From the NCBI GenBank assembly GCA_020051175.1, contig JAGVJJ010000014.1:1-64000 (forward strand): 64,000 bases of DNA, given 5' to 3'. The notes beneath the pieces are model-generated. The model was not told the origin of the DNA. It did not search any database and saw nothing but the letters and a program-made list of their open reading frames with translations. Shown in pieces: positions 30,352-48,377 of this stretch. This DNA comes from Bacteroidia bacterium. Its GTDB lineage: Bacteria > Bacteroidota > Bacteroidia > 2-12-FULL-35-15. Positions within the stretch are counted from its first letter, which is position 1; every line of letters begins with the position of its first letter. The position numbers were made by a program, and so were the translations under genes.

Positions 30352-30459
30352 GGGGTCAAAAGTACTATTTTTTTGATTTCTCAAGCAGAAATCAGGAAAA
30401 AAAATATTTATTCCGTAAATTTGTATAACACGCAATCCATTAATAATACTAATATTTCA

Positions 30460-31962
30460 ATGAAAAAGCACTTTCTGATACCTTGTTTTATGCTGCTGGC
30501 AACATTTAACATCCTCGCAAACAGCAAAATAACAGCGTATTTAACTTATGCAAGCTTTAATGTTCCGGCAAAAACCCCTTATATCGAAACCTATTTATCC
30601 ATCATTGGAAACTCGGTGAATTTTGTAAAAAATGCCAGCGGTAAGTTTCAGGGAGCGGTTGAAATAAGCATTACTTTTCTTCAAAACGGGGATATAAAAA
30701 ACGCTCAAAAATATACATTAAATAGCCCGGAAACGATGGATACGAGTATTGCGTATCCTAATTTCATTGACCAGCAACGGTTTACGCTTGCAAATGGCGT
30801 TTACACAATGGAAGTATCCATTCTTGATAAAAACAGTATTGTGGAAAAGCCTTTTGTCACGCAGGTTCCCATCACTATTAATTACAATGAAAGCACCATC
30901 CTGGTATCTGATTTTCAACTGCTTGAATCCTACTCAAAATCTGTAAATCCAACAATTCTGACTAAAAGTGGGTACGACCTGTTACCTTATGTGTCTACTT
31001 TTTATCCCAACAATATTCAAAAACTGAAATTTTATTCAGAAATCTACAACTCGAAAAAAATTCTGGGCACCGACCAAAAAATGATATTCAGTTATTTTAT
31101 CGAATCCTACGAAAAGAGAATAAAACTAAACGACTACAGTGCTTTTTCGAAACAAACTGCAAACGATGTAAATATTCTGCTTACAGAATTTGACATTAGC
31201 AAGCTGCCAACAGGAAACTACAACCTTGTACTGGAAGTCAGGGACAAGGAAAATAAAATCCAGGCTGAAAAGAAACTGTTTTTTCAACGACAAAATACAA
31301 ATGGCAAGTTCAGCTATGAAGATTTAAAATCTGTTGATGTAAAAAATACGTTTGTGACCAGCTATACCAATATGGATACATTGGTGGATTACATACGCTG
31401 CCTGCGTCCCATATCCAACTTTTCGGAAGTAAAGTATGCCGAGAACCAGCTCAAAGAGCGAAAGCTGGAAATCATGCAGCAGTTTTTTTACAATTTCTGG
31501 AAAAGCCGCAACGAAACAGAGCCTCAGCTTGCCTGGCTGGAATACTATAAGGAAGTAATGAAAGTAAACAAGGAATTTGATACTTACGGTCTTAAAGGCT
31601 ATGATACCGACAGGGGCCGTGTTTACTTGCAATACGGTCCTCCGGACCAGCGTAGCAAGGTGGAAGCCGAGCCGAGCGCTTACCCTTATGAAATATGGGA
31701 ATATTACAGGCTCATTGACAAATCACTGGTTACAACATACTCGGAAAACAAGCAATCCAACAAGAAATTTGTATTCTACAACCCCGATCTGGTAACCAAT
31801 AAATTTACGCTTATCCATTCCACCGCTCAGGGCGAAGTATACAATACACGCTGGGAAATATTGCTTCATAAGCGCGATTCTCAATCTCACGATATGGATG
31901 CGGAGAAGGTACAGCAGCATTTTGGTGGCAATGCAGATGATAATTTCAGAAACCCGAGGTAA
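30460..31962 (+). CDS. GWxTD domain-containing protein (start MKKHFLIPCFMLL)
   Basis: C-terminal 'GLKGYDTDRGRVYLQYGPPDQRSKVEAEPSAYPYEIWEYY'. Confidence 0.88.
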   Translation: MKKHFLIPCFMLLATFNILANSKITAYLTYASFNVPAKTPYIETYLSIIGNSVNFVKNASGKFQGAVEISITFLQNGDIKNAQKYTLNSPETMDTSIAYPNFIDQQRFTLANGVYTMEVSILDKNSIVEKPFVTQVPITINYNESTILVSDFQLLESYSKSVNPTILTKSGYDLLPYVSTFYPNNIQKLKFYSEIYNSKKILGTDQKMIFSYFIESYEKRIKLNDYSAFSKQTANDVNILLTEFDISKLPTGNYNLVLEVRDKENKIQAEKKLFFQRQNTNGKFSYEDLKSVDVKNTFVTSYTNMDTLVDYIRCLRPISNFSEVKYAENQLKERKLEIMQQFFYNFWKSRNETEPQLAWLEYYKEVMKVNKEFDTYGLKGYDTDRGRVYLQYGPPDQRSKVEAEPSAYPYEIWEYYRLIDKSLVTTYSENKQSNKKFVFYNPDLVTNKFTLIHSTAQGEVYNTRWEILLHKRDSQSHDMDAEKVQQHFGGNADDNFRNPR

Positions 31963-31969
31963 CTAGTGA

Positions 31970-32080
31970 ATAGTTATTGGTTATTGGTTATCTGTTATCT
32001 GTTATCCGTTATTAGGTAATTCTGATAGCCAATAACAGGTAATAATAACTGATATACTGATAACTTATTAACTATAACTT
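31970..32080. repeat. degenerate GGTTATT/CTGTTATC heptamer repeat tract
   Basis: ttattggttattggttatctgttatctgttatccgttattagg... Confidence 0.7.
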
Positions 32081-32101
32081 CAAAATACATACCTTTGTCT
32101 T

Positions 32102-33130
32102 ATGAAGGTTGCTGTAGTTATCCTGAACTGGAACGGTAAAAATTTTCTCGAAAAATTTTTACCGTCTGTTGTTGCAAACAATCCTGTTTATTCAGAAATA
32201 ATTGTTGCTGATAATGCTTCAAGTGATAACTCAATTGCTTTTCTTAAGGAACGCTATCCCCCGATTAAGATCATTCAGAATGCTGAAAATGGAGGATTTT
32301 CCAGAGGCTATAATGACGCATTGAAACAGGTAAAAGCAGATTACTATGTTTTGCTGAATTCCGACATTGAAGTAACAGCCAACTGGATTGATCCTGTAAT
32401 TCAACTGATGGACAGCGATGAAACAATTGCTGCATGTCAGCCTAAAATAAGGGATTACAATAAAAAAACACATTTCGAGTATGCTGGTGCAGCTGGTGGT
32501 TATATTGATAAATATGGCTATATGCTATGTCGCGGACGTATTTTTGATACCATAGAAGAAGACAAAGGACAATACGATGATACGCGTGAGATATTCTGGG
32601 CCACAGGTGCATGCCTGTTTATCCGCTCTAAATATTATCACCAGATGGGTGGACTTGATGAAGATTTTTTTGCACACATGGAAGAAATTGATCTGTGCTG
32701 GCGCTTAAAAAATTACGGATATAAAATCATGTACTGCGCTGACTCTACAGTATACCATGTTGGTGGTGGCACACTCAATAAAACCAGTCCACACAAGACA
32801 TTTTTAAATTTTCGTAATAACCTGGTCTTACTTTTTAAGAATCATGCACCGGCTTATTTTATTATAAAAATTATATTGCGCATGCTCTTGGATGGCATTG
32901 CTGGAATTAAATTTTTAATTTCAGGACAGGCTCCTCACTTTATGGCAATACTTAAAGCACACTATGCATTTTACTCTTCACTGAGCAAAACACTGGCAAA
33001 GCGGAGGAAACTGAAGCACGATATAAAACAATATGCAACCAAAGGGATTTATTCAGGCAGTATTGTTGCAGATTATTATTTGAAAGGGATTAAACAATTT
33101 GACCAGATTGATAGCAAAAAATTCTCATGA
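32102..33130 (+). CDS. glycosyltransferase family 2 protein
   Basis: 'VAVVILNWNGKNFLEKFLPSV', 'IIVADNASSDNSIAFL', 'YYVLLNSDIEV', 'FFAHMEEIDLCWRLKNYGYKI'. Confidence 0.96.
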   Translation: MKVAVVILNWNGKNFLEKFLPSVVANNPVYSEIIVADNASSDNSIAFLKERYPPIKIIQNAENGGFSRGYNDALKQVKADYYVLLNSDIEVTANWIDPVIQLMDSDETIAACQPKIRDYNKKTHFEYAGAAGGYIDKYGYMLCRGRIFDTIEEDKGQYDDTREIFWATGACLFIRSKYYHQMGGLDEDFFAHMEEIDLCWRLKNYGYKIMYCADSTVYHVGGGTLNKTSPHKTFLNFRNNLVLLFKNHAPAYFIIKIILRMLLDGIAGIKFLISGQAPHFMAILKAHYAFYSSLSKTLAKRRKLKHDIKQYATKGIYSGSIVADYYLKGIKQFDQIDSKKFS

Positions 33131-33813: not shown

Positions 33814-33984
33814 ATGAAAAACAAAATTTTATTAGCATCCATTCTTGCAATGTCCACGGTGGTGCTTCCTGGCTGTGAAACAATTGGAAATATTTTTACT
33901 ACCGGGGTCTGGTTTGGAATAGTAATAGTAATGGTACTCATCATATTTGTACTTTGGCTATTGAATAAGACAAAAAATAAATAG
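33814..33984 (+). CDS. small lipoprotein with C-terminal TM helix (56 aa)
   Basis: MKNKILLASILAMSTVVLPGCETIGNIFTTGVWFGIVIVMVLIIFVLWLLNKTKNK; below the ORF-track length cut-off; lipobox LPGC. Confidence 0.7.
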   Translation: MKNKILLASILAMSTVVLPGCETIGNIFTTGVWFGIVIVMVLIIFVLWLLNKTKNK

Positions 33985-34030
33985 TCATGTTTTGAGTAAG
34001 ATGTTCCACACAAAAAAGCGGGAAAACAAA

Positions 34031-34060
34031 AAGGCCCGAAAGAAAAATCTTCCGGGCCTT
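34031..34060. terminator. terminator between convergent lipoprotein gene and mksE-like gene
   Basis: aaggcccg / cgggcctt stem; T/A-rich flanks. Confidence 0.7.
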
Positions 34061-34081
34061 CAATTAATAAGGTAAAATCAG

Positions 34082-34606
34082 TTACTCCTTCTCCGCATTC
34101 TCATACTTCACAATATCCGCAGCAAAATCCATAAAGAACTTGTGGGCCGAAGTAAACACAAAACGGTTATCACCGGTTTTTTCAATAATATTCCTTCTGT
34201 TCATCGTATTGATAAAGTTCTTGCGCGATTCAGCATCTTTCAGCTGTTTATTGGAAAGAATCAAGTCAATGTATGAAGAGTTGGTAAAATAATTTTCGAT
34301 TTCTTCTATCTCAAACTCGCTGAACTGTATCCGCTCCAGGAAGTTTTTACCATCACGGTCAAGCTCATAGCTCAACAAAGCAATAAAAATACACACATCG
34401 CGTGACAGCATTTCGTTGGACTCGTCTGAAACCAGGTAAGCAAAATCCTGAGTCAGTCTCAATTCATAATTGAAAGATGCCTTGAAAAAGTAGTTATAGG
34501 ATTGCTCATTTTCTTTAAGCACTGCATAAGTACGCTCAGTAGGCAAAACAAATTTACCACTGGTTAAATCCTCTACAATCTGGCGGTGGTGATTAGGAAA
34601 TTCCAT
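34082..34606 (-). CDS. MksE/MukE-like condensin subunit (putative)
   Basis: 174 aa, winged-helix-like, 14-nt overlap with the upstream kleisin-like gene; size and context fit MksE/JetB. Confidence 0.65.
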   Translation of the reverse strand: MEFPNHHRQIVEDLTSGKFVLPTERTYAVLKENEQSYNYFFKASFNYELRLTQDFAYLVSDESNEMLSRDVCIFIALLSYELDRDGKNFLERIQFSEFEIEEIENYFTNSSYIDLILSNKQLKDAESRKNFINTMNRRNIIEKTGDNRFVFTSAHKFFMDFAADIVKYENAEKE

Positions 34607-35789
34607 GTTGTTTATTGATAGTTATTTTAGGATACGTTAATGTTAAATCGTTGATCTTCAATTTTTCAAATTCAGGCTTGGCACCAAAATCGCGCTCAAT
34701 ATCTTCGTCAAATGCCAGTGTAGTCAATGCAAAGAATTTTTCAATCTCTACCTTTTTGTAATCTTCTTTTAATGTTTTATTGCACCATTTAAAGAAATCC
34801 GGCACCGGCAGATTGGACTTTAGTTTTGTGGTATAATACTCTTTGTCAAAAATCCACTTTTCGTCCGAATTTACTTCGTCATCAAAGTATACATCCACAT
34901 CATTTTTAAACTGCTCAAAAATTTCAGCGGCATTAAAAAACGTGCTTCGGGAATAGATACTGTGACGCTTGGTTTCAAGCATACGAGGCACTTTCTGTTT
35001 GTAAGGATTTTTAAGGAAAGTAATCCAGCCGGTAAGAATAATGGACTCAGTACGTATACGCTCAATCAGCGGTAATAATTCAGTGGTTAAGATCTTCGAC
35101 TGACGTAATAAATTATCATTCACCTGTATCAGCTGGAAATACATCTTCTCAAACAATACACGCGTATTTTCCTCGTCAGTAGTTAAGCGGTAGCGGTTGG
35201 TATACTCAGATATGTCATACAGCTTATTGGCAATAGAAGAGCTGTGGTTAATATCGAGGATTTTATTCAATGGAATGATGTACTCATCGATCCAGCGTGA
35301 AGCACGCACAATCTTTTCGCGGTAATCAATCTTTTTCACATTCGCTTTCAGCTCGCGGGTTTCATTCAGCAAGCTGATGGTGTTTTTCTCCACCATTTCA
35401 TAGAAAGTACGAATCTCGTTGGAAAGCTCCGTTAACCGCTGGTTCAGAAGCACCTTATCGCCATTGATGTTTTCCTTGATTTTACGGAACAGCTCGGAAA
35501 TGGAAACATGATACTTTTCAATGGTTTCCGGCAACATCGGCTTGAACTCGCTCTGTATAAACTCAATGAGATTATAATAAACGGTACGTATTTCATAGCT
35601 GTCGTTTACCGGACTTAATATTTTGTAGTCGACCAGCTGCACTTTAATATCAATATTGTGCTTTGACGTAAGTTCACTTAAAATCTCACGTGTAATCACA
35701 CCACCCTTTGATTGTGTTTCATACAAATCAACGATGATATCAAAATACTCTAATAAAAAGCGCAGTATGGTCCTTGGTTCTGCTTTCAT
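34593..35789 (-). CDS. MksF/MukF-like kleisin subunit (putative)
   Basis: 398 aa; N-terminal winged-helix-like region 'RTILRFLLEYFDIIVDLYE...' followed by long helical region; overlaps mksE-like gene; SMC-type ATPase nearby on same strand. Confidence 0.65.
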   Translation of the reverse strand: MKAEPRTILRFLLEYFDIIVDLYETQSKGGVITREILSELTSKHNIDIKVQLVDYKILSPVNDSYEIRTVYYNLIEFIQSEFKPMLPETIEKYHVSISELFRKIKENINGDKVLLNQRLTELSNEIRTFYEMVEKNTISLLNETRELKANVKKIDYREKIVRASRWIDEYIIPLNKILDINHSSSIANKLYDISEYTNRYRLTTDEENTRVLFEKMYFQLIQVNDNLLRQSKILTTELLPLIERIRTESIILTGWITFLKNPYKQKVPRMLETKRHSIYSRSTFFNAAEIFEQFKNDVDVYFDDEVNSDEKWIFDKEYYTTKLKSNLPVPDFFKWCNKTLKEDYKKVEIEKFFALTTLAFDEDIERDFGAKPEFEKLKINDLTLTYPKITINKQHGIS

Positions 35790-35805
35790 TAACCCCTCCC
35801 TAGCA

Positions 35806-35822
35806 CTCCCCCTAATGGGGAG
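35806..35822. repeat. REP-like G/C-rich hairpin (ctcccc-ctaat-ggggag)
   Basis: Within acccctccctagcactccccctaatggggagg just upstream of kleisin-like start codon. Confidence 0.65.
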
Positions 35823-35879
35823 GAACTTGTTTTAGTTATTTAAAATGTTTAAATTTTTTATTCAATAATAACATTATTA

Positions 35880-38800
35880 TTACCGGCTGATGACTAGTTT
35901 ACCCTTTGTCACATTGTTGTTATTTACATTCACTTTATAAATATACATTCCCTCACTTAATGTAGATATAGACGTTTGTTTAACATCATTACCTGCATTG
36001 AATGTATCAGAAAGAATTAATTTTCCAGCAATGTCGTACAATGATAGCGTAGCAGTTTGTTGTTCATTCAAACTAATAAAAATAGTTATTTTATCATTCG
36101 CAGGGTTTGGGAACACTACGATATTACCTGCGGTACTATCTTCTTCTAGCATGTTTTTATGTGTGCCTATGTGCGATGGTACAATTTCACACTCATTTAT
36201 ATAAACAGCGGTATCTAAGGTTGAAAGAAGTGCTCTTGCATTATATACGGCAGGACCGCTTTCGTAAGGGCATAATTTAGCTATTGCTTGTAATGTATTT
36301 ATTTCATTGCTGTTAAGACTATCATTAACCCAGTTTGCAATAGTGATAGTATATACATCTTTCAAATTTTGCTCAATGGTATTTTCAGGATTAAAAACAT
36401 TAATTGAAATGTTGGCAGCTGCAATATCTCCATGGTTAATCAATTCATTAAGACCGTATAATTTACCAATATTATTAGTTAAAATACTGTCAGCAAAAGT
36501 TTGTAAGTCAGAAGTTCCTAACAATAATGCTGTATCTGCAAGCATAGCTGTATCTGTTCGCAGCAAATTGTATAAGGAATAGTTAGCCCACCATTTTGAG
36601 GGAACACTATAAAGGGCGGGATAACTGTGCTCATCATTAGCCAGCTGCTGGAATTGCAGCAGTTTACTATTATCCTCATTTCTTCCTGAAAGTGTACCAC
36701 AAACAGGCGTTGGTACTGCGCTATAACCTGTTGGTGGATCAACTGTACTAACTAAATTATTGGGATACATACAAGGGCCACTGAGAGTATTACAAGGACT
36801 TCCGTATAAATTCATAATTGATTGAGTTCCATCAGAATAATAAGAAAAAATATGACTTCCACTAAAAGTTCCTTCCCAAGTATTTTCTGTTGCTCTACAG
36901 GAGCTTGAACTTCCATTTTGATATCCAATTGTACTGGAATTAAGTACAAACCCATCCATATTATTCTTCATATGATTCTTAGCTGTTTCAGTTCCTAAAT
37001 TTCCACCACTGAAAAACAAACCTCTTCCAATATCTTCAACAGAATTATACAAAACAACAGAAAGGACACACCCAGGTTCTATTCGTATACCATTCATCCA
37101 CCAGGCCGAAGCTCCAATACCTTTAACAAGATTTGTCCGCAAATTCAATGAGGGGCAATTAGCAACCAATATCCCATTGCTTTGTATACTGCTCCCTAAA
37201 TTACTTAATGAGGTAATATTATTACTTTGAATACTAGGTGCTGTATGATTAGTAACCTCTATACCTGTCGAAACACGCTTTATATTATTATAAAAAATAC
37301 TAAGTTGAGGATTGGTATTAAGAGATGTATTTAATATACTTATGGCTTTGCTATTGGGTTTGGAGTTACTTGTTGGAGAGGCAATATTGATATTGTTTGA
37401 AAGCACCCAGAAACCAGAACTCCCTGCACAATCTATTGAGTAAATACCTGTAGAACAATCGTCAATAGTATTATTACTTATATTAAAACCATTTCCTGAA
37501 TAAGAACAGTTATTGATAGAAACTCCTGTTGTTAAGTTATTCATTGTATTTGAAAGCACACTTACATCCATACTTCCTGAGGCATAAATCCCTGTAGTAG
37601 AATTTACAAACGTATTTTTTTGGTATGAATTATTATTTCCCCCAACCACTAAAAGCCTTTCTGTTGTTGTATTAGAATAAGATCCAATACAGCGACCGGA
37701 AAAGCCCGAGCCGGAAATATTTTTAAAATTAGTATTATATACTCTCAAACCAGAACGCAAACAATAAATTCCCATATCCATATTGTCAAAAGTATTTGTT
37801 TGACCCGATTGATCCACTCCAATATTCACTTGTGTAACAGTTTCCATTATATCAACACCTTTACTGGTTCGTAGTCCGGCATAAGGAGCGATTAATGCAT
37901 TGGCAGGAAGGCCAGATGAATTATAGCAAGAAATTGTACTGTTTTTTACTACACCAGGATGTGTTCCAGAATAAGGTCCGATTCTTATTGCGACATAATT
38001 TGCATTGAGTTTTGAACCATTTTGTATAGTAAAAGGAGCGCCTAACCTTGATTCAATTGCAACTTTTGCTTTCTCTATAGTAGAAGCATTATCAACCAAT
38101 AAACTGGTTCCCGAATTTAATATTATCCCAGTCCACATACTGCCAGTCCATGACGTAATCAAGGCTCCATCAGTGATAATTAAGTTTGCTCCAGGATCTA
38201 ATGTAATGGAACCGTTAGTAGCCATTGCCACCTTGCATTTTATTGTGAGTGTGGCACCATTAGTAACTTTTATATTTTGATACATTTGAATATCAAAATC
38301 CCATGTTTCATTTTGATTTACTACCCAGTCATTGCTTGAGGAAATCATGGACTTCACGTATTTTCTAACACTTTTTATTGCTAGCGCTCTATTTGCCTTT
38401 CCCAATTGCAAAGGTGACAAATACTCGTTAGACTGTGTTCCTCCCATTAAATTATTAGTAGAATAATAACTACTATTATAAGGGTCAAATCCCCACCCAC
38501 CTTGATGTACACAAGCATAATTTGCTGGTGGTGTACAATAATTCCACCAACTAGTATTATACACATCACTTAAATAATCCAAATCCAGCATATATTGATT
38601 ATAATCATACGTATGATATAAATCCAACGAATGCCCCAATTCATGCAAAAGGTGGCCCGACCAAGCATAATCTTGTGTAGGATTGTCCGCTGCATTAAAA
38701 GTAACAACATATGAATTTTGACTTAAGTTTGTTTCAGATGGAAACGCAGAAAACCCCAATGCTGGAGGTCCACAATATGCCCCTCCTGTAACATAAATAG

Positions 38801-39329
38801 GAACCGAACCTGAAATCCGTGAAGGATCAATACCATTTACATATGATTCATAGGCATTCGCATTACAAGTGACTAGTGTATTAAGATAATCATTTTGATA
38901 AAAATAAATCCCAGATACTTCATATTGTATTGTACTATTCGGAATATGAGTCACCCCAGTAATTGGGTCAGAAGGAGATGAGAGAGAAGCCATTCTTGGG
39001 TTCATCCATGAATTCACAATAGTATTTAATCTTGATAAATGTGAGGCATCATTTTGCCAATTATTACTTCCATTATTTTTTTGAAAAAAGTGAAAAGAAA
39101 TTCTAACTATTTTGGTAGGAGTAACACTTGGAACAGGCACGTACCCAGAAACCCGACCATACCTATTAGTGTAAGTGCTTGAAACCGGTGTACATGGTAT
39201 AGATTTAGTTCCTGAAGTTGCATTATTTGCACCTCCACAGTCGCTCCAAGTTAATTGAGCCATAGCAGCAGTACAATCTGTTAATATACACGCTATTACT
39301 ACAATAGTCTTATAAATTATTGATTTCAT
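35880..39329 (-). CDS. secreted metzincin-like metalloprotease with right-handed beta-helix repeats and T9SS type A sorting domain
   Basis: 'HLLHELGHSLDLYHTYDY' zinc site, 'NNLMGGTQ' Met-turn, parallel beta-helix-like Asn/Ser-rich repeats, C-terminal 'VVFPNPANDKITIFISLNEQQTATLSLYDIAGKLILSD...EGMYIYKVNVNNNNVTKGKLVISR'. Confidence 0.85.
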   Translation of the reverse strand: MKSIIYKTIVVIACILTDCTAAMAQLTWSDCGGANNATSGTKSIPCTPVSSTYTNRYGRVSGYVPVPSVTPTKIVRISFHFFQKNNGSNNWQNDASHLSRLNTIVNSWMNPRMASLSSPSDPITGVTHIPNSTIQYEVSGIYFYQNDYLNTLVTCNANAYESYVNGIDPSRISGSVPIYVTGGAYCGPPALGFSAFPSETNLSQNSYVVTFNAADNPTQDYAWSGHLLHELGHSLDLYHTYDYNQYMLDLDYLSDVYNTSWWNYCTPPANYACVHQGGWGFDPYNSSYYSTNNLMGGTQSNEYLSPLQLGKANRALAIKSVRKYVKSMISSSNDWVVNQNETWDFDIQMYQNIKVTNGATLTIKCKVAMATNGSITLDPGANLIITDGALITSWTGSMWTGIILNSGTSLLVDNASTIEKAKVAIESRLGAPFTIQNGSKLNANYVAIRIGPYSGTHPGVVKNSTISCYNSSGLPANALIAPYAGLRTSKGVDIMETVTQVNIGVDQSGQTNTFDNMDMGIYCLRSGLRVYNTNFKNISGSGFSGRCIGSYSNTTTERLLVVGGNNNSYQKNTFVNSTTGIYASGSMDVSVLSNTMNNLTTGVSINNCSYSGNGFNISNNTIDDCSTGIYSIDCAGSSGFWVLSNNINIASPTSNSKPNSKAISILNTSLNTNPQLSIFYNNIKRVSTGIEVTNHTAPSIQSNNITSLSNLGSSIQSNGILVANCPSLNLRTNLVKGIGASAWWMNGIRIEPGCVLSVVLYNSVEDIGRGLFFSGGNLGTETAKNHMKNNMDGFVLNSSTIGYQNGSSSSCRATENTWEGTFSGSHIFSYYSDGTQSIMNLYGSPCNTLSGPCMYPNNLVSTVDPPTGYSAVPTPVCGTLSGRNEDNSKLLQFQQLANDEHSYPALYSVPSKWWANYSLYNLLRTDTAMLADTALLLGTSDLQTFADSILTNNIGKLYGLNELINHGDIAAANISINVFNPENTIEQNLKDVYTITIANWVNDSLNSNEINTLQAIAKLCPYESGPAVYNARALLSTLDTAVYINECEIVPSHIGTHKNMLEEDSTAGNIVVFPNPANDKITIFISLNEQQTATLSLYDIAGKLILSDTFNAGNDVKQTSISTLSEGMYIYKVNVNNNNVTKGKLVISR

Positions 39330-39338
39330 TGATTTTTT

Positions 39339-40295
39339 TTAACGAACGACATTTAATGCGCCCGATTTAACAATACGGTTATTACAAATTACTTTATAAA
39401 TGTATACTCCCTTATTTAGATTACCAATTGAAATTTCTGTAATATTATTATTTCTATTAAGTATATGCGAATTTTGAAGTTTACCCACAATATCAGCTAT
39501 TTCTATTATTCCTGTTTCTGATGGCTTCAAATCAACGACTACGTTTAATTTATCGTTCGCAGGATTGGGATATATTTTCACTTCTCTTTTATCTAGTTGT
39601 GATTCATCAATACTAGTAATATAGTCGCACGCACTGGTTATTCCAGTTGAATAAGAACCAAAGGTGGTATCTGAATAACAACGCAACCCTCCATGAACTC
39701 CTTCTGCAGTAGAGCCATAACATGGAGCAAAATCAATATCATCATATCTGTATCCCAATCGCTCTACCATGGTATCAAGAACATAACCAAATGTTTGGTT
39801 ACCGGAATAATCCAAAGGCCCTATTTTTACATACAACCAATTCAAATTAAAACCCTGAATATTTTTTGTACCTGTATTTAATACCTCCACAAAATAAGTC
39901 GAATCAGCACAGGCAGTATCTACTAACGGAAAACGCCATCGGTTCCCTATTTGTGCGTTGGTATTAAATAAAGTATCGAACTTATTGTTACCATATCTGT
40001 TATTATATAAATATACAACTCCATTTTGTTCATAAGTAAAATATGGATTACGATACCCACTAACACTACCAAAAATACCTGTACCGTCATAGTAATGGGA
40101 TATTTTTTTACAAGTAGTTGAGTTTATTACAGTATCATTTATATAAGTTAATTTTGAGTAACCGTACCAATCTGCAGAAGCATCAGTATAATACCATGTT
40201 GCCCCAGCCGGACACCACGTTTGTGAATATAAACTTAGTGACGTAGAAACGCTTAATACAATAATAATTATTCTGCTGAATCGCTTTTTAAACAT
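39339..40295 (-). CDS. T9SS type A sorting domain-containing secreted protein
   Basis: Signal peptide; C-terminal 'VKIYPNPANDKLNVVVDLKPSETGIIEIADIVGKLQNSHILNRNNNITEISIGNLNKGVYIYKVICNNRIVKSGALNVVR'. Confidence 0.88.
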   Translation of the reverse strand: MFKKRFSRIIIIVLSVSTSLSLYSQTWCPAGATWYYTDASADWYGYSKLTYINDTVINSTTCKKISHYYDGTGIFGSVSGYRNPYFTYEQNGVVYLYNNRYGNNKFDTLFNTNAQIGNRWRFPLVDTACADSTYFVEVLNTGTKNIQGFNLNWLYVKIGPLDYSGNQTFGYVLDTMVERLGYRYDDIDFAPCYGSTAEGVHGGLRCYSDTTFGSYSTGITSACDYITSIDESQLDKREVKIYPNPANDKLNVVVDLKPSETGIIEIADIVGKLQNSHILNRNNNITEISIGNLNKGVYIYKVICNNRIVKSGALNVVR

Positions 40296-40306
40296 ACTCT
40301 TAATTT

Positions 40307-42994
40307 TTATTTACCTTTCAATGGCTTAACCGGAGCCTGAACAACCCCATTCTTCTCAACAATAAGCGCATTTTGTTTTTCACTGATATTGATTTTTCCT
40401 TTTGAAGGATAAATGAAATAGTATTTGTTGAATCCTTCAACAGCATCAGGAGCAGCAAAAATCGGGATGAAGAAATGGTCTTTACAGAACTTCACCAGCT
40501 CCGGACGGTTTTGCTTGTCAATAGTCGCAACCTCATCAATAAACAAAGCAATTTTGTTTTGTTCATCGGTTATTGCCAAACGGTTGATAATGGACATGAT
40601 CATTACCAAACGGATCATACGGTCAGTACCATCAGATTCTACCTGGTTGGCCAAATCCACACGTTTATCGGTTCCTTTGATATGTAACAATAACTCAATG
40701 TTGAACAATTCATCAAAACCAACTTTTTTACCGCTGTCGAGATAAGTATTCAATACTTTTAAGTTTTCCGACTGGTCAAACTCAAAGCTCATCTGCCCGT
40801 TGAACTCCTGGATAGAAGCAATCTGCTTCAGCTCACCAATGATACGCTCGTTGTCAATCAAATCCACTTTCATGGACTCAATATTTGAAATACGGGTAGA
40901 AGAAAGTTTCTCATTGAATTTAGTATACACAAATTGTTTGAACTCCTCATAACGCTTTAACAACGTGTATGCAGGATTCGCAAACTGTGTTGAAATACTT
41001 GACAACAAACCATCAATACTGCGCTCTTTGTCCGACAAGCAGGCAATTTCATCTTCCACAAAAGTGATGAATTGATCAATGTCAGCCATATTGCTGCGTA
41101 ACCGATACTTTAAATTATCGAACGTAGCATCTTTCTTTGCTTTCAGTTCGGCCCTGTCCTTCTGATGAATCTGGATTTTTGAATACAAATAATCCAGGTT
41201 ATCATTGGTCTCGTATTCAATTGGCTCCAGGTTAATGGATTCCACTTCCATTTTACGCTCCTTCAGCTCACGCACACGCACTTCGTAATTACGCTTCTCA
41301 TCCTGGAGTTTCTCAAACATAATTTGTTTTTGGGAAATCTCTTTCACCAACGAGCTTAAAAATTCCTCCAGTTCTTTTTTCTCGGTATTCAATCCTCTGA
41401 TTTCATCCGTAATGGCACGTACCTGTTTTTCCAAAGCTGGTTTGCTCTCAATGCGTCTGATTTTTTCTTTGATAAGCTCAATCTCGCTCAGGATAACTTT
41501 CAGCTTGGAATCAATCTTTTCTTTATCAACAACGGTTTTCAATAATTCTTCCGTTTGTTTCTTCTCTGCCTGTAACACTTTCAGCTCGTCTTTCAATTCT
41601 TTTACAGAACGGAATTCTTTCAGCGTAATGCCTTTGGTAATATCAATTTCACCATCAAATACCGATAACAACTTAGCCGAAATCTTTTTGATTGGTTTCT
41701 TGATTTGCTTGCTGGATAAGCTAATTACCTGGTCAGCAAGTACAGAGTTCAACAGCTGCTTCACCTCTTCGTCATCCGAAATTTTGTGAATCAACAGGTT
41801 GTTGTAATTGTCAATCTGGTTTTCTAATGAAGTTATCTGGTAGTTTAGCTTTTCAATACGCAGCTCCAGTTGTTTGCTGGATAACTTCTGGATTTCAATG
41901 GTTGTAAAGCGGTTTTCAATCTCTTTACGTTCCTTATCCAGGTTGCGCCATGATTCCCTTAGGAATTCAATAGTTTCGTATTTCTGAAGCTCGTTTAGCT
42001 CATTTTGCTTCTCAGCAAGAATGTTGGTTTTGTTTTTAATATCTGAATTCTTTTCACCGATATACGAAGCGTAGCTCAACTCTTTCGGTTTCAGAATTTC
42101 ATTGATTTCATTGTGAATAGCAGCAATGTTCCGCCCGCGCTCTACTGATGAAATTTCAAGCTCCGGAATAGCGCTGGTATAAGCATTATTGAAAGCATAG
42201 ATCAACTCACCTACAATACGTGTTTTAGAGTTGTATACTTTCACTAATTCGCGGAACTCAAGGAAATCCGGGCGTACCGCTTTAATGCTCTTAATTTCCT
42301 CATTGATGCGCAACAAGTCGGTAATATCCTTTTTATTTTTCTGAGAAAAGTTAAGGCTTTCATTTTCACGGTTATCCGCAATAATCAACGACTCTTTCAG
42401 CGTTTTGTTGGTAATCAGTTTGGAATTGATCAGGTAACGGTAGATCTTGGAAAAGTTATTACTCAAACCATCTGCTTTTACAGTATCCTCAAGCCATACA
42501 ACAGCATTGTTTTTTGTACCGCGGTGGTATACCTGGTTAAATACATCCGATTTGGTGACAAACTTGCTATGGCTAACCCCGCGTTCATTCAATTTTGCAA
42601 TGGCCTCATCAAAATTCAGAAGTCGCTGGTGCGCTCCTTCGTTTTCAAAGAAATACTCTTCGCTGTATTCACTGTCAATTTTATAATACTCCAATTCCCC
42701 GTCTGTATTACGCTTTACAAGGATACAGTAGTAACCCAGCTTATTCACTTCAAATATCAAAAAGCTCTTGTTATGCGTAGGAAAGTAGTGATGGATGGTT
42801 TCCTTGTCACCTTTACGCTGGCCGCTGAACGACATCTTTTGTCCGTCAACAACGAACAAAAAGTTCAACGCATAAATAAGGGTACTTTTCCCAATATTAT
42901 TCGGCCCCACCAATTGGATAGAATCACAATCGTCCAGTTTCATTTCGGCTTTACCATAGCCCTTTGAGTTAATAAGAGAAATTCGTGTAAGCAT
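40307..42994 (-). CDS. SMC-like ATPase, MksB/MukB/JetC-like (putative condensin ATPase)
   Basis: 895 aa; Walker A 'GPNNIGKSTLIYALNFLF' at N-terminus, two long coiled-coil blocks around a central globular segment, Walker B 'NKIALFIDEVATID' near C-terminus. Confidence 0.75.
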   Translation of the reverse strand: MLTRISLINSKGYGKAEMKLDDCDSIQLVGPNNIGKSTLIYALNFLFVVDGQKMSFSGQRKGDKETIHHYFPTHNKSFLIFEVNKLGYYCILVKRNTDGELEYYKIDSEYSEEYFFENEGAHQRLLNFDEAIAKLNERGVSHSKFVTKSDVFNQVYHRGTKNNAVVWLEDTVKADGLSNNFSKIYRYLINSKLITNKTLKESLIIADNRENESLNFSQKNKKDITDLLRINEEIKSIKAVRPDFLEFRELVKVYNSKTRIVGELIYAFNNAYTSAIPELEISSVERGRNIAAIHNEINEILKPKELSYASYIGEKNSDIKNKTNILAEKQNELNELQKYETIEFLRESWRNLDKERKEIENRFTTIEIQKLSSKQLELRIEKLNYQITSLENQIDNYNNLLIHKISDDEEVKQLLNSVLADQVISLSSKQIKKPIKKISAKLLSVFDGEIDITKGITLKEFRSVKELKDELKVLQAEKKQTEELLKTVVDKEKIDSKLKVILSEIELIKEKIRRIESKPALEKQVRAITDEIRGLNTEKKELEEFLSSLVKEISQKQIMFEKLQDEKRNYEVRVRELKERKMEVESINLEPIEYETNDNLDYLYSKIQIHQKDRAELKAKKDATFDNLKYRLRSNMADIDQFITFVEDEIACLSDKERSIDGLLSSISTQFANPAYTLLKRYEEFKQFVYTKFNEKLSSTRISNIESMKVDLIDNERIIGELKQIASIQEFNGQMSFEFDQSENLKVLNTYLDSGKKVGFDELFNIELLLHIKGTDKRVDLANQVESDGTDRMIRLVMIMSIINRLAITDEQNKIALFIDEVATIDKQNRPELVKFCKDHFFIPIFAAPDAVEGFNKYYFIYPSKGKINISEKQNALIVEKNGVVQAPVKPLKGK

Positions 42995-43285
42995 TGTTAT
43001 CTGAGTTTCGTAATTATTTGAAAATCAAATATAGTAAGATGCCTGATGCCACTGGAGAGCACAAATAGCTGTTAATTCCAACTAACTGAAAAATAAATTG
43101 TTACGGGACTTTTTGTTGAAAAAATTAAAGTTGTTAAACATCCGCCAAAATGCTTGACTCGTATGCTTTAATTCACTATGATTGATAAAATTATAAACTT
43201 GCAACTTAAATATTGTAAAAGCCACAGATTCAGGGATTTAACCGGTGCAAAATCGGTGAATCTATAGCTTATAATCCCAACGTAT

Positions 43286-44041
43286 ATGACAAAAATTACT
43301 TCCCTCATTTTTGCAGCCGCAATCTGTATCGCAATCTCCTCCGGATGTAACAATGGAACTATTTCCACTGGTGACGGCTCTAATAAAGTAACTGGCAATG
43401 GAAAACAACTATCTGAAACAAGGGAAATTACAGGCTTTAGTGAAATCTCTCTCGAAGGAGCATTTAATGTTATCCTCAAACAATCAGATAAAGAGAGTGT
43501 TACAGTTGAGGCAGACGAAAATATAGTTCCCCTTATACACACAGAAGTTGAAAATGGCACCTTAAAAGTGGGTATGAAAGATAACACCACCTTTCAGAAT
43601 ATGGGCAAGCTGGAAGTAACCATATTTCTCAAAACCATTACCGGAATAAAAACTGCAGGTGCAGGTTCCCTTGTCTCTTCCGACACCCTACACGTAACTG
43701 ACCTTAAAATGGATTTAAATGGAGCGGGTGCCACGGATCTTAAAATTATGGCAGATAAGTTAACCGTAAATTCGCAATCAGTAGGTGCATTGCAACTTTC
43801 GGGGAAAGTAAAAGAGGTTGCTATTGACCAAAACGGAGTAGGACTTATTCAGGCTTTTGATTTAAAATCGGAAAAACTGACTCTAAAAGCCAGTGGTGTT
43901 GGTGCAGCTGAAGTATTCGCTTCGCAGGAACTATCAATTGACGCATCCGGTATTGGAAGTGTGCAGTACAAAGGTGGTGCTACCAAAACTGAAATTAAAA
44001 ATGATGGAATTGGCAAAGTAACGTGTATCGACTGTAAATAA
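43286..44041 (+). CDS. head GIN domain-containing protein (DUF2807)
   Basis: Lipobox 'ISSGCNN'; 'ITGFSEISLEGAFNVILKQSDKESVTVEADENIVPLIHTEVENGTLKVG' and GxG repeats. Confidence 0.92.
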   Translation: MTKITSLIFAAAICIAISSGCNNGTISTGDGSNKVTGNGKQLSETREITGFSEISLEGAFNVILKQSDKESVTVEADENIVPLIHTEVENGTLKVGMKDNTTFQNMGKLEVTIFLKTITGIKTAGAGSLVSSDTLHVTDLKMDLNGAGATDLKIMADKLTVNSQSVGALQLSGKVKEVAIDQNGVGLIQAFDLKSEKLTLKASGVGAAEVFASQELSIDASGIGSVQYKGGATKTEIKNDGIGKVTCIDCK

Positions 44042-46928: not shown

Positions 46929-48263
46929 TTAGACAAGCTCGGGCCGTTCTACAACAAAATCCTCAAGCAATACACTCCCGTCCGCATCCAGGGCTTTTAG
47001 CGTTACAGGCTTCAACTGATTAATAAGAGCTGCATTAAAAGGAGTTTTTACTTTCACATAATTGTCAGTAAAACCATGCATAAAGCCTTCTTTGTTATCC
47101 CCTTCAAACAATACGGTACGTGTTTCTCCCAGGTGCTGCTCATAAAAACTGCGCAGCTTTTTAGCAGATAGAATACGAAGCATTTTGTTGCGCTTTTTAC
47201 GCACCGCAACAGGTACAACATCCGGCAAATGGATCGCATCCGTATTATCGCGCTCGGAGTAGGTAAACACGTGCAGATACGAAACCGGCAGCTCATTCAG
47301 GAAATTATAAGTATCTAAAAAATCTTCATCACTCTCGCCCGGAAATCCAACAATAACGTCCACACCAATACAACAATGCGGCATCAGGGTTTTAATTCGG
47401 GAAACGCGGTCGGCATACAGCTCACGCAAATAACGCCTGCGCATGGCTTTCAGCATTTTATTGCTACCCGACTGCAACGGAATATGGAAATGTGGAACAA
47501 AGCGTTTGGACTGTGCCACAAACTCAATCACCTCATCTTTCAGCAAATTAGGCTCAATCGAAGAAATGCGGAAACGTTCAATTCCATTCACCTCATCCAG
47601 TTCCTTTACCAAATCAAAAAAAGTTTCTGCCTTACGATTGCCGGTTTTAGCGGCATTGTTGCCGAAATCGCCCAGGTTCACACCGGTAAGTACAATCTCT
47701 TTTATATTCTGTTTTGCAATATCATTTGCGTTTTTTACCACATTCTCAATACTGTCGCTGCGGCTTTTACCACGTGCCAGAGGAATAGTACAGAATGAAC
47801 AGCTGTAATCGCAACCATCCTGGGCCTTCAGAAACACACGTGTGCGATCGCCAAGAGAATAAGCATCCACAAAGAAATTTGCTTCTTCTATTTCACAACT
47901 GTATATCTCAGCTTTGGATTTTTTCGTAAGATCATTCAGGTAGTTCAGCAGCTTGAACTTTTCAGAAGCACCCAGCACCAGATCAACACCATCAATATTG
48001 GCTATTTCTTCGGGCTTTAGCTGCGCATAGCACCCCACTACCACCACATATGCCTCAGGTGATACACTCAGGGCAGATTTTACAATCTGTTTGCACTCCT
48101 TATCCGCATTGGCTGTAACCGAACAGGTATTAATAACATACACATCCGAAGGCTCTTTAAAATCAACCTTCTGATAACCCTGCTCCTCAAATAAACGACC
48201 TATAGTGGAAGTCTCAGAGAAATTCAGCTTACAGCCCAGTGTATGAAATGCTACTTTTTTCAT
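46929..48263 (-). CDS. mtaB: tRNA (N6-threonylcarbamoyladenosine(37)-C2)-methylthiotransferase MtaB (start MKKVAFHTLGC)
   Basis: 'AFHTLGCKLNFSET', radical-SAM 'DGCDYSCSFCTIPLARGKSRS', 'VGVDVIVGFPGESDEDF'. Confidence 0.92.
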   Translation of the reverse strand: MKKVAFHTLGCKLNFSETSTIGRLFEEQGYQKVDFKEPSDVYVINTCSVTANADKECKQIVKSALSVSPEAYVVVVGCYAQLKPEEIANIDGVDLVLGASEKFKLLNYLNDLTKKSKAEIYSCEIEEANFFVDAYSLGDRTRVFLKAQDGCDYSCSFCTIPLARGKSRSDSIENVVKNANDIAKQNIKEIVLTGVNLGDFGNNAAKTGNRKAETFFDLVKELDEVNGIERFRISSIEPNLLKDEVIEFVAQSKRFVPHFHIPLQSGSNKMLKAMRRRYLRELYADRVSRIKTLMPHCCIGVDVIVGFPGESDEDFLDTYNFLNELPVSYLHVFTYSERDNTDAIHLPDVVPVAVRKKRNKMLRILSAKKLRSFYEQHLGETRTVLFEGDNKEGFMHGFTDNYVKVKTPFNAALINQLKPVTLKALDADGSVLLEDFVVERPELV

Positions 48264-48377
48264 TTTTTCAGGCTGCAAAGATACGAAAATTGTACAAAAC
48301 AATAGTGCGGGTTAGTAAACAGGCCCATAAAAACCAGAAATTAACATCTTGAGAACTTTTTTCAGACCACAAACTAA

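Follow-up and report, generated by a model that had tools for sequence, protein, structure and literature searches.

MksBEF condensins are reportedly known from the 2011 work of Petrushenko et al. on MksB of P. aeruginosa. In Wadjet and mksFEBG operons, the genes for a kleisin, MksE, an SMC ATPase and a nuclease follow one another in that order (PMC10123090), and a review of 2023 speculated that MukBEF and MksBEF came from Wadjet through loss of the nuclease JetD, with MukBEF in enterobacteria given as the known replacement of Smc-ScpAB (PMC10586767). A Hi-C study of the same year described alignment of chromosome arms, with no known condensin, in two gut species of Bacteroidetes, and Bacteroides was said to use unidentified SMC complexes (PMC10197239). 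Here we analyze a 64,000-nucleotide stretch of a Bacteroidia bacterium genome (contig JAGVJJ010000014.1, hereafter the window), in which three genes, mksB, mksF and mksE, encode with high confidence an MksBEF-type SMC complex. It is likely that this trio serves as the housekeeping and sole chromosomal condensin of its lineage, replacing an absent Smc-ScpAB, and it probably arose via a nuclease-bearing ancestor.

Identity of MksB, MksF and MksE

A first-pass annotation of the window had proposed that the trio consists of an SMC ATPase, a kleisin and MksE, and this identity was supported by a Pfam match for MksE together with the predicted folds of the other two proteins. MksE matched PF21980 (E=2.6e-21; 77 bits, the cut-off being 27). 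For MksB and MksF no specific family was found by sequence in Pfam, PADLOC or NCBIfam, with Pfam giving only generic AAA matches for MksB; PADLOC and NCBIfam yielded nothing specific for the trio, and neither phmmer nor hmmsearch recovered a relative of MksB, MksF or MksE among PDB sequences. AlphaFold2 models were compared with 350,542 PDB chains using Foldseek (significance at E<=0.001). The MksF model, made from a 29-sequence alignment (predicted local distance difference test score, pLDDT, of 76, with a linker of low confidence), shows winged helices and had as its sole match at that threshold MukF in MukBEF (9gm7_C, E=5.6e-4, probability 1.00), followed by weaker matches to MukF (3rpu_B), MukBEF (9gm9_D) and JetABC (9qxx). 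The MksB model (pLDDT 74) displays a succession of head, coil, mini-hinge, coil and head, and its four top matches were MukB chains (among them 9gm9_A, E=2.7e-14, and 7nyw_B, E=2.6e-13), with Rad50, JetC and Smc5/6 ranking thereafter and JetC also being significant. Both searches gave low global TM-scores, as would be expected of proteins with flexible coiled coils, and so these results give the fold family and not the geometry.

Along MksB, conservation peaks in the two halves of the head and rises to a lesser degree in the middle of the protein, and the Walker A motif GPNNIGKS and Walker B motif ALFIDE, as first annotated, were found with key residues invariant in the 27 homologues over which invariance was scored. 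The locus thereby has the features of MukBEF and MksBEF, i.e. a KITE protein of the MksE/MukE family, a MukF-type kleisin with two winged helices and a MukB-like SMC ATPase. By analogy with MukBEF and JetABC, the three proteins would assemble as a complex, in which two MksB subunits would be joined at the mini-hinge and the two winged-helix domains of MksF would bridge the MksB head and neck, with an MksE dimer bound; ATP-driven loop extrusion by this complex may then lead to folding and segregation of the chromosome.

Distribution of the trio and absence of Smc-ScpAB

Among 35 genomes of the genus, PF21980 was found in 32, and the core trio in 31, since the single PF21980 match of one genome (G008) sits in a separate Wadjet-like operon; the four genomes without the core trio are 64–80% complete. 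Neither SMC_hinge (PF06470) nor ScpA (PF02616) was found in any of the 35, and both were found together in four class-mates and in the expected controls. The trio is co-inherited across relatives, with pairwise distances of the B, F and E subunits correlating at r 0.88–0.94. Compared with the nearest relative of the window locus (L031), pN was 0.04–0.07 and pS about 0.73–0.77, the latter near saturation, with dN/dS of about 0.02; this applies to each of the three genes, also to the two that follow the insertion described below, and the trio is thus under strong purifying selection. Its setting is chromosomal, with MtaB-like and GroEL-type chaperonin neighbours, and no homologues of the trio were found in 72,556 plasmids.

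In a wider sample of 155 Bacteroidia genomes, evenly drawn and each at least 90% complete, the MksF kleisin family was found in 18 genomes and SMC_hinge in 29, with an overlap of zero, and MksE was found in 50, five of which also had SMC_hinge. As many as 81 of the 155 had neither an SMC hinge nor a Pfam MksE, and these have either very divergent condensins or none. At the level of the phylum the hinge was present in 169 of 197 genomes, and because the hinge-less genomes listed all come from the class of the window, loss of canonical SMC is a trait of part of that class. All of these distribution counts, from genus to phylum, ignore the relatedness of the genomes.

In one relative (L052:190-2804, the same locus as L092) mksB appears as two overlapping open reading frames (ORFs), with the mksF and mksE frames also shifted, reflecting either a frameshift from sequencing error or a decayed gene.

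An improbable defence role and the search for an effector

The first-pass annotation had weighed a divergent chromosomal condensin of Bacteroidota against a defence system whose effector is either missing or distant. With profiles for JetD_C and for the DUF7281-type nuclease of relatives, no nuclease was found in the genome of the window, a metagenome-assembled genome (MAG) of 117 contigs that is 82% complete. Nor does a JetD-like gene come next after mksE, where, as had been noted, an intrinsic terminator with a 14-bp stem lies instead (34061-34030). Elsewhere in the genus the two profiles matched in G001, G008, G016 and G020, while a marginal match in G009, in a 578-aa frame, is probably unrelated. 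The strong nuclease matches of G008, G016 and G020 lie within separate Mks operons, and the contig in G001 is too short to tell. The one relative that was fully checkable, G016, has four Mks systems, namely a nuclease-free core locus (L081), an operon of order B-D-F-E (L080) and two of order F-E-B-D (L079 and L082), so that each nuclease sits in an operon of its own and the core locus lacks one. The suggestion of a missing or distant effector was thereby left unsupported. PADLOC made no Wadjet call on the window and gave a weak JetC match to the P-loop only; by comparison, scores reach 1118 bits for a true Wadjet in G035.

It is therefore very improbable that the trio is an accessory, Wadjet-like anti-plasmid defence with its nuclease encoded elsewhere or unrecognised. 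Although in homologous operons a JetD/DUF7281 TOPRIM nuclease gene is placed between those for SMC and kleisin, and although the complex is similar to JetABC and MukBEF alike, most of the genus has neither a JetD_C nor a DUF7281-type nuclease, and the near-universal presence, strong purifying selection and stable chromosomal setting of the trio contrast with the patchy occurrence of Wadjet (PMC10586767). The near-universal trio, the lack of Smc hinge and ScpA and the lack of a JetD-like nuclease together indicate that this is probably a chromosomal condensin and not a defence system. The proposal of a divergent condensin thus gained support from the MksE family match, the folds, the co-inheritance, the presence in the genus and the absence of Smc and ScpA, and we infer a housekeeping role.

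Nuclease-bearing relatives and origin of the operon

Six related loci (L065–L068, L080 in G016 and L115 in G239) have the order SMC, nuclease, kleisin, MksE, with nuclease ORFs located at L065:4392-5201(+), L066-L068:9171-9980(+) and L115:9503-10294(-). The nucleases of these operons have 263–269 aa, a weak DUF7281/JetD_C match and a TOPRIM-type site in which E145, D188 and D190 are invariant. Because the nuclease gene is still directly 3' of the SMC gene, this order is a circular permutation of the Wadjet order, which was itself found in L077–L079 and L082, and the nuclease occupies the spot where the insertion sits in the window. The PADLOC models did not recognise the permuted operons as Wadjet, and these probably constitute an undescribed Wadjet subtype.

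The L115 locus belongs to the clade of the window (46–55% identity to the window proteins) and L065–L068 are in a second one (about 30%). From one clade to the other the nucleases are 34–37% identical, as compared with 27–30% for B and F and 35–37% for E; since this is not above the expectation from the other subunits, it fits inheritance with the operon and later loss over recent transfer. Furthermore, a nuclease-free family (f4, loci L060 and L123) nests inside the nuclease-bearing loci of the second clade with a support of 99 in the midpoint-rooted tree, therefore suggesting one clear nuclease loss in that clade, and within one clade the B subunits are 64–67% identical across the nuclease boundary. 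In the clade of the window, L115 may instead have gained its nuclease. The family would have derived, with or close to permuted Wadjet, from an ancestral operon that included a JetD-like nuclease, the gene for which is absent here. We hold descent from a nuclease-bearing Wadjet-like operon with moderate confidence, and infer loss as the direction of change. It is about as likely as not that a permuted Wadjet-type operon was domesticated to a sole chromosomal condensin by nuclease loss, probably more than once in Bacteroidia (in the window's lineage and in f4 as separate events) and independently of the MukBEF replacement in enterobacteria.

Several points weigh against the trio being a sole housekeeping condensin of such descent. 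The structural models are moderate in quality, with the Walker A region of MksB below a pLDDT of 50. The genomes of the survey are all draft or MAG assemblies, and the mutual exclusion of the MksF family and SMC_hinge is confounded by kinship, the chance of zero overlap being about 0.02 if genomes were independent. With equal costs, parsimony needs three changes for nuclease gain and four for loss. Three Bacteroidales-type genomes have the nuclease-bearing form alone and no SMC, so that presence of the nuclease is not a strict mark of an accessory system. From comparison of genomes, we hold with good confidence that the trio is most likely the only condensin of its lineage.

A rule by which the nuclease would occur only where another condensin exists was also considered and dropped, being true for G016 and G239 and untrue for the three Bacteroidales-type genomes. 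In other families of Bacteroidia (L089, L090 and L091), F-E-B operons (kleisin-MksE-SMC) lack a recognisable nuclease immediately downstream and may encode additional nuclease-free condensins of another type.

An insertion between mksB and mksF

In the window, the ORFs for the SMC ATPase and the kleisin are 4,517 nt apart, and the first-pass annotation had treated this split as a trait of the system. That view was rejected on comparison with 34 other nuclease-free loci (26 nearest to the window and 8 from other families): mksB directly adjoins mksF in all 34, in the order SMC-kleisin-MksE, with a spacing of -4 to 35 nt in 29 of them and of 60–330 nt in the remaining five. The window alone among the nuclease-free loci compared has genes between the two, and the insertion is private to its genome. 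The gap, the content of which had not been stated, holds two genes for proteins that are secreted, as judged from their C-terminal sorting domains of the type IX secretion system (T9SS). A working part of these proteins in the condensin was rejected, as they are secreted and missing from the operons of all relatives.

Both flanks are syntenic with relatives. In 15 of the 19 orthologous loci with enough flank, an MtaB-like gene lies upstream of mksB at a distance of at most 3 kb; L032 and L034, the closest relatives, also have the GT2/GWxTD gene pair downstream; and a GGGGAG-rich intergenic element directly before mksF is common to the window and L031. The syntenic flanks, the retained element and the uninterrupted relatives point to a recent insertion. 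The T9SS gene pair was inserted between mksB and mksF with no subunit damaged. Just 5' of mksF both genomes have a short GC-rich imperfect inverted repeat (CTCCCCATTAGGGGGAG...), at about 35796-35830 in the window and about 9960-10000 in L031, the rest of the intergenic region being AT-rich.

An artefact of MAG assembly, the true locus being an ordinary contiguous operon, is hardly to be expected: the assembly is fragmented and incomplete, as given above, but the synteny of both flanks, the precise junctions with the element before mksF retained as in L031, and a GC content of the insert only slightly lower than that of its neighbours (0.33–0.35 versus 0.38–0.39) all argue for a genuine insertion. 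It is scarcely credible that the insertion uncoupled mksB from mksFE in a decaying locus whose complex is heading for loss, since, even though it is private and breaks an otherwise tight operon, the three ORFs are intact with mksF and mksE constrained as much as mksB, the five genes mksB, 318 aa, 1149 aa, mksF and mksE are collinear on the minus strand, spaced by about 10, 9 and 90 nt up to the mksF/mksE overlap and with a strong terminator after mksE only, so that co-transcription is still possible, and no other condensin was found to replace the trio.

Layout of the locus

The features of the locus are compiled in Table 1. The annotated positions and sizes of the 895-, 398- and 174-aa genes were exact, and so was the 14-nt overlap of the latter two, which recurs at exactly this length in nearly every core-clade locus and is therefore not accidental. 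In a hairpin scan of 33900-43400 the terminator stem past mksE was by far the longest, with a total hairpin count no higher than in shuffled sequence. A regular-expression scan of the intergenic regions gave nothing convincing as a Bacteroidota-type promoter, and sigma-70-like sites at the locus were not more frequent than in shuffles. In the larger inserted gene product, the metzincin-like zinc motif has aspartate for the usual glycine, with the NosD-like repeats following it, and its M43 match is below the Pfam cut-off.

Table 1. Features of the mksBFE locus and its surroundings, in window positions.
Feature	Position	Strand	Basis
mksB, SMC/MukB-type ATPase, 895 aa; head, coiled coil, mini-hinge (~425-463), coiled coil, head	40307..42994	-	Motifs, AlphaFold2 model, Foldseek
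Walker A GPNNIGKS, MksB residues 30-37	42884..42907	-	N32, N33, G35, K36, S37 invariant in 27 homologues
ABC signature-like motif VESDGTD, MksB residues 785-791	40622..40642	-	S787, G789, T790 invariant
Walker B ALFIDE, MksB residues 816-821	40532..40549	-	D820, E821 invariant in 27 homologues
Insertion gene 1, 318-aa secreted protein, T9SS sorting domain; outside condensin	39339..40295	-	Por_Secre_tail, E=1.2e-10
Insertion gene 2, 1149-aa secreted protein; weak M43/metzincin-like motif HELGHSLDLYH, NosD-like repeats, T9SS type A sorting domain; outside condensin	35880..39329	-	Por_Secre_tail, E=8.1e-15; TIGR04183
mksF, MukF-type kleisin, 398 aa; N-terminal winged helix (~5-67), helical bundle (69-260), flexible linker, C-terminal winged helix (~316-392)	34593..35789	-	AlphaFold2 model and Foldseek
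mksE, KITE subunit MksE, 174 aa	34082..34606	-	Pfam PF21980
14-nt mksF/mksE overlap (translational coupling)	34593..34606	-	ORF coordinates; same in nearly all core-clade loci
Intrinsic terminator past mksE	34030..34061	-	14-bp stem, then T-rich tract
MtaB-like tRNA methylthiotransferase, four genes from mksB	46929..48302	-	Named by sequence resemblance
GWxTD-domain gene and glycosyltransferase-like (GT2) gene, convergent with mksE	30373..33130	+	GWxTD by Pfam; glycosyltransferase by sequence resemblance

Comparison with known systems

The interest of the trio is twofold, in that which condensin Smc-less Bacteroidota use has been an open question (PMC10197239) and the route from Wadjet to condensin has so far been speculation (PMC10586767). 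The case of Bacteroides itself is not solved herein, considering the 81 sampled Bacteroidia genomes without SMC hinge or recognised MksE. What the locus adds is a further lineage without Smc-ScpAB and with a fixed MukBEF-type complex. With Smc-ScpAB the trio shares a presumed cellular role, but it has no SMC hinge, ScpA or sequence match to that system, which is absent from the genus. As with MukBEF, which gave the top fold matches for both MksB and MksF, Smc-ScpAB has probably been replaced; MukBEF, however, belongs to enterobacteria, with an SMC of 1,486 aa and another gene order, whereas the trio occurs in Bacteroidia with an SMC of about 900 aa, and the replacement would be independent of that by MukBEF.

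Closest in composition is MksBEF, having the same three subunit types, with MksE recognised by Pfam, an SMC of about 900 aa, no nuclease and a proposed chromosomal role. The trio differs from it by the order B-F-E instead of F-E-B, although order is a variable rather than a mechanistic trait, by a kleisin and an SMC without detectable sequence match to described families, and by being the only condensin found, whereas MksBEF coexists with SMC. With Wadjet (JetABCD or MksBEFG) it shares a homologous SMC-kleisin-KITE core, and the related B-D-F-E operons encode a JetD/DUF7281-type nuclease; unlike Wadjet, the locus has no nuclease, shows a gene order that is a circular permutation of F-E-B-D, is fixed in the genus instead of patchy, and is not called by PADLOC models. 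The data support the published idea that MksBEF came from Wadjet by nuclease loss, the presumed direction of change. Since this permuted operon is found here side by side with and without a nuclease gene, the transition from defence to housekeeping becomes testable on closely related proteins.

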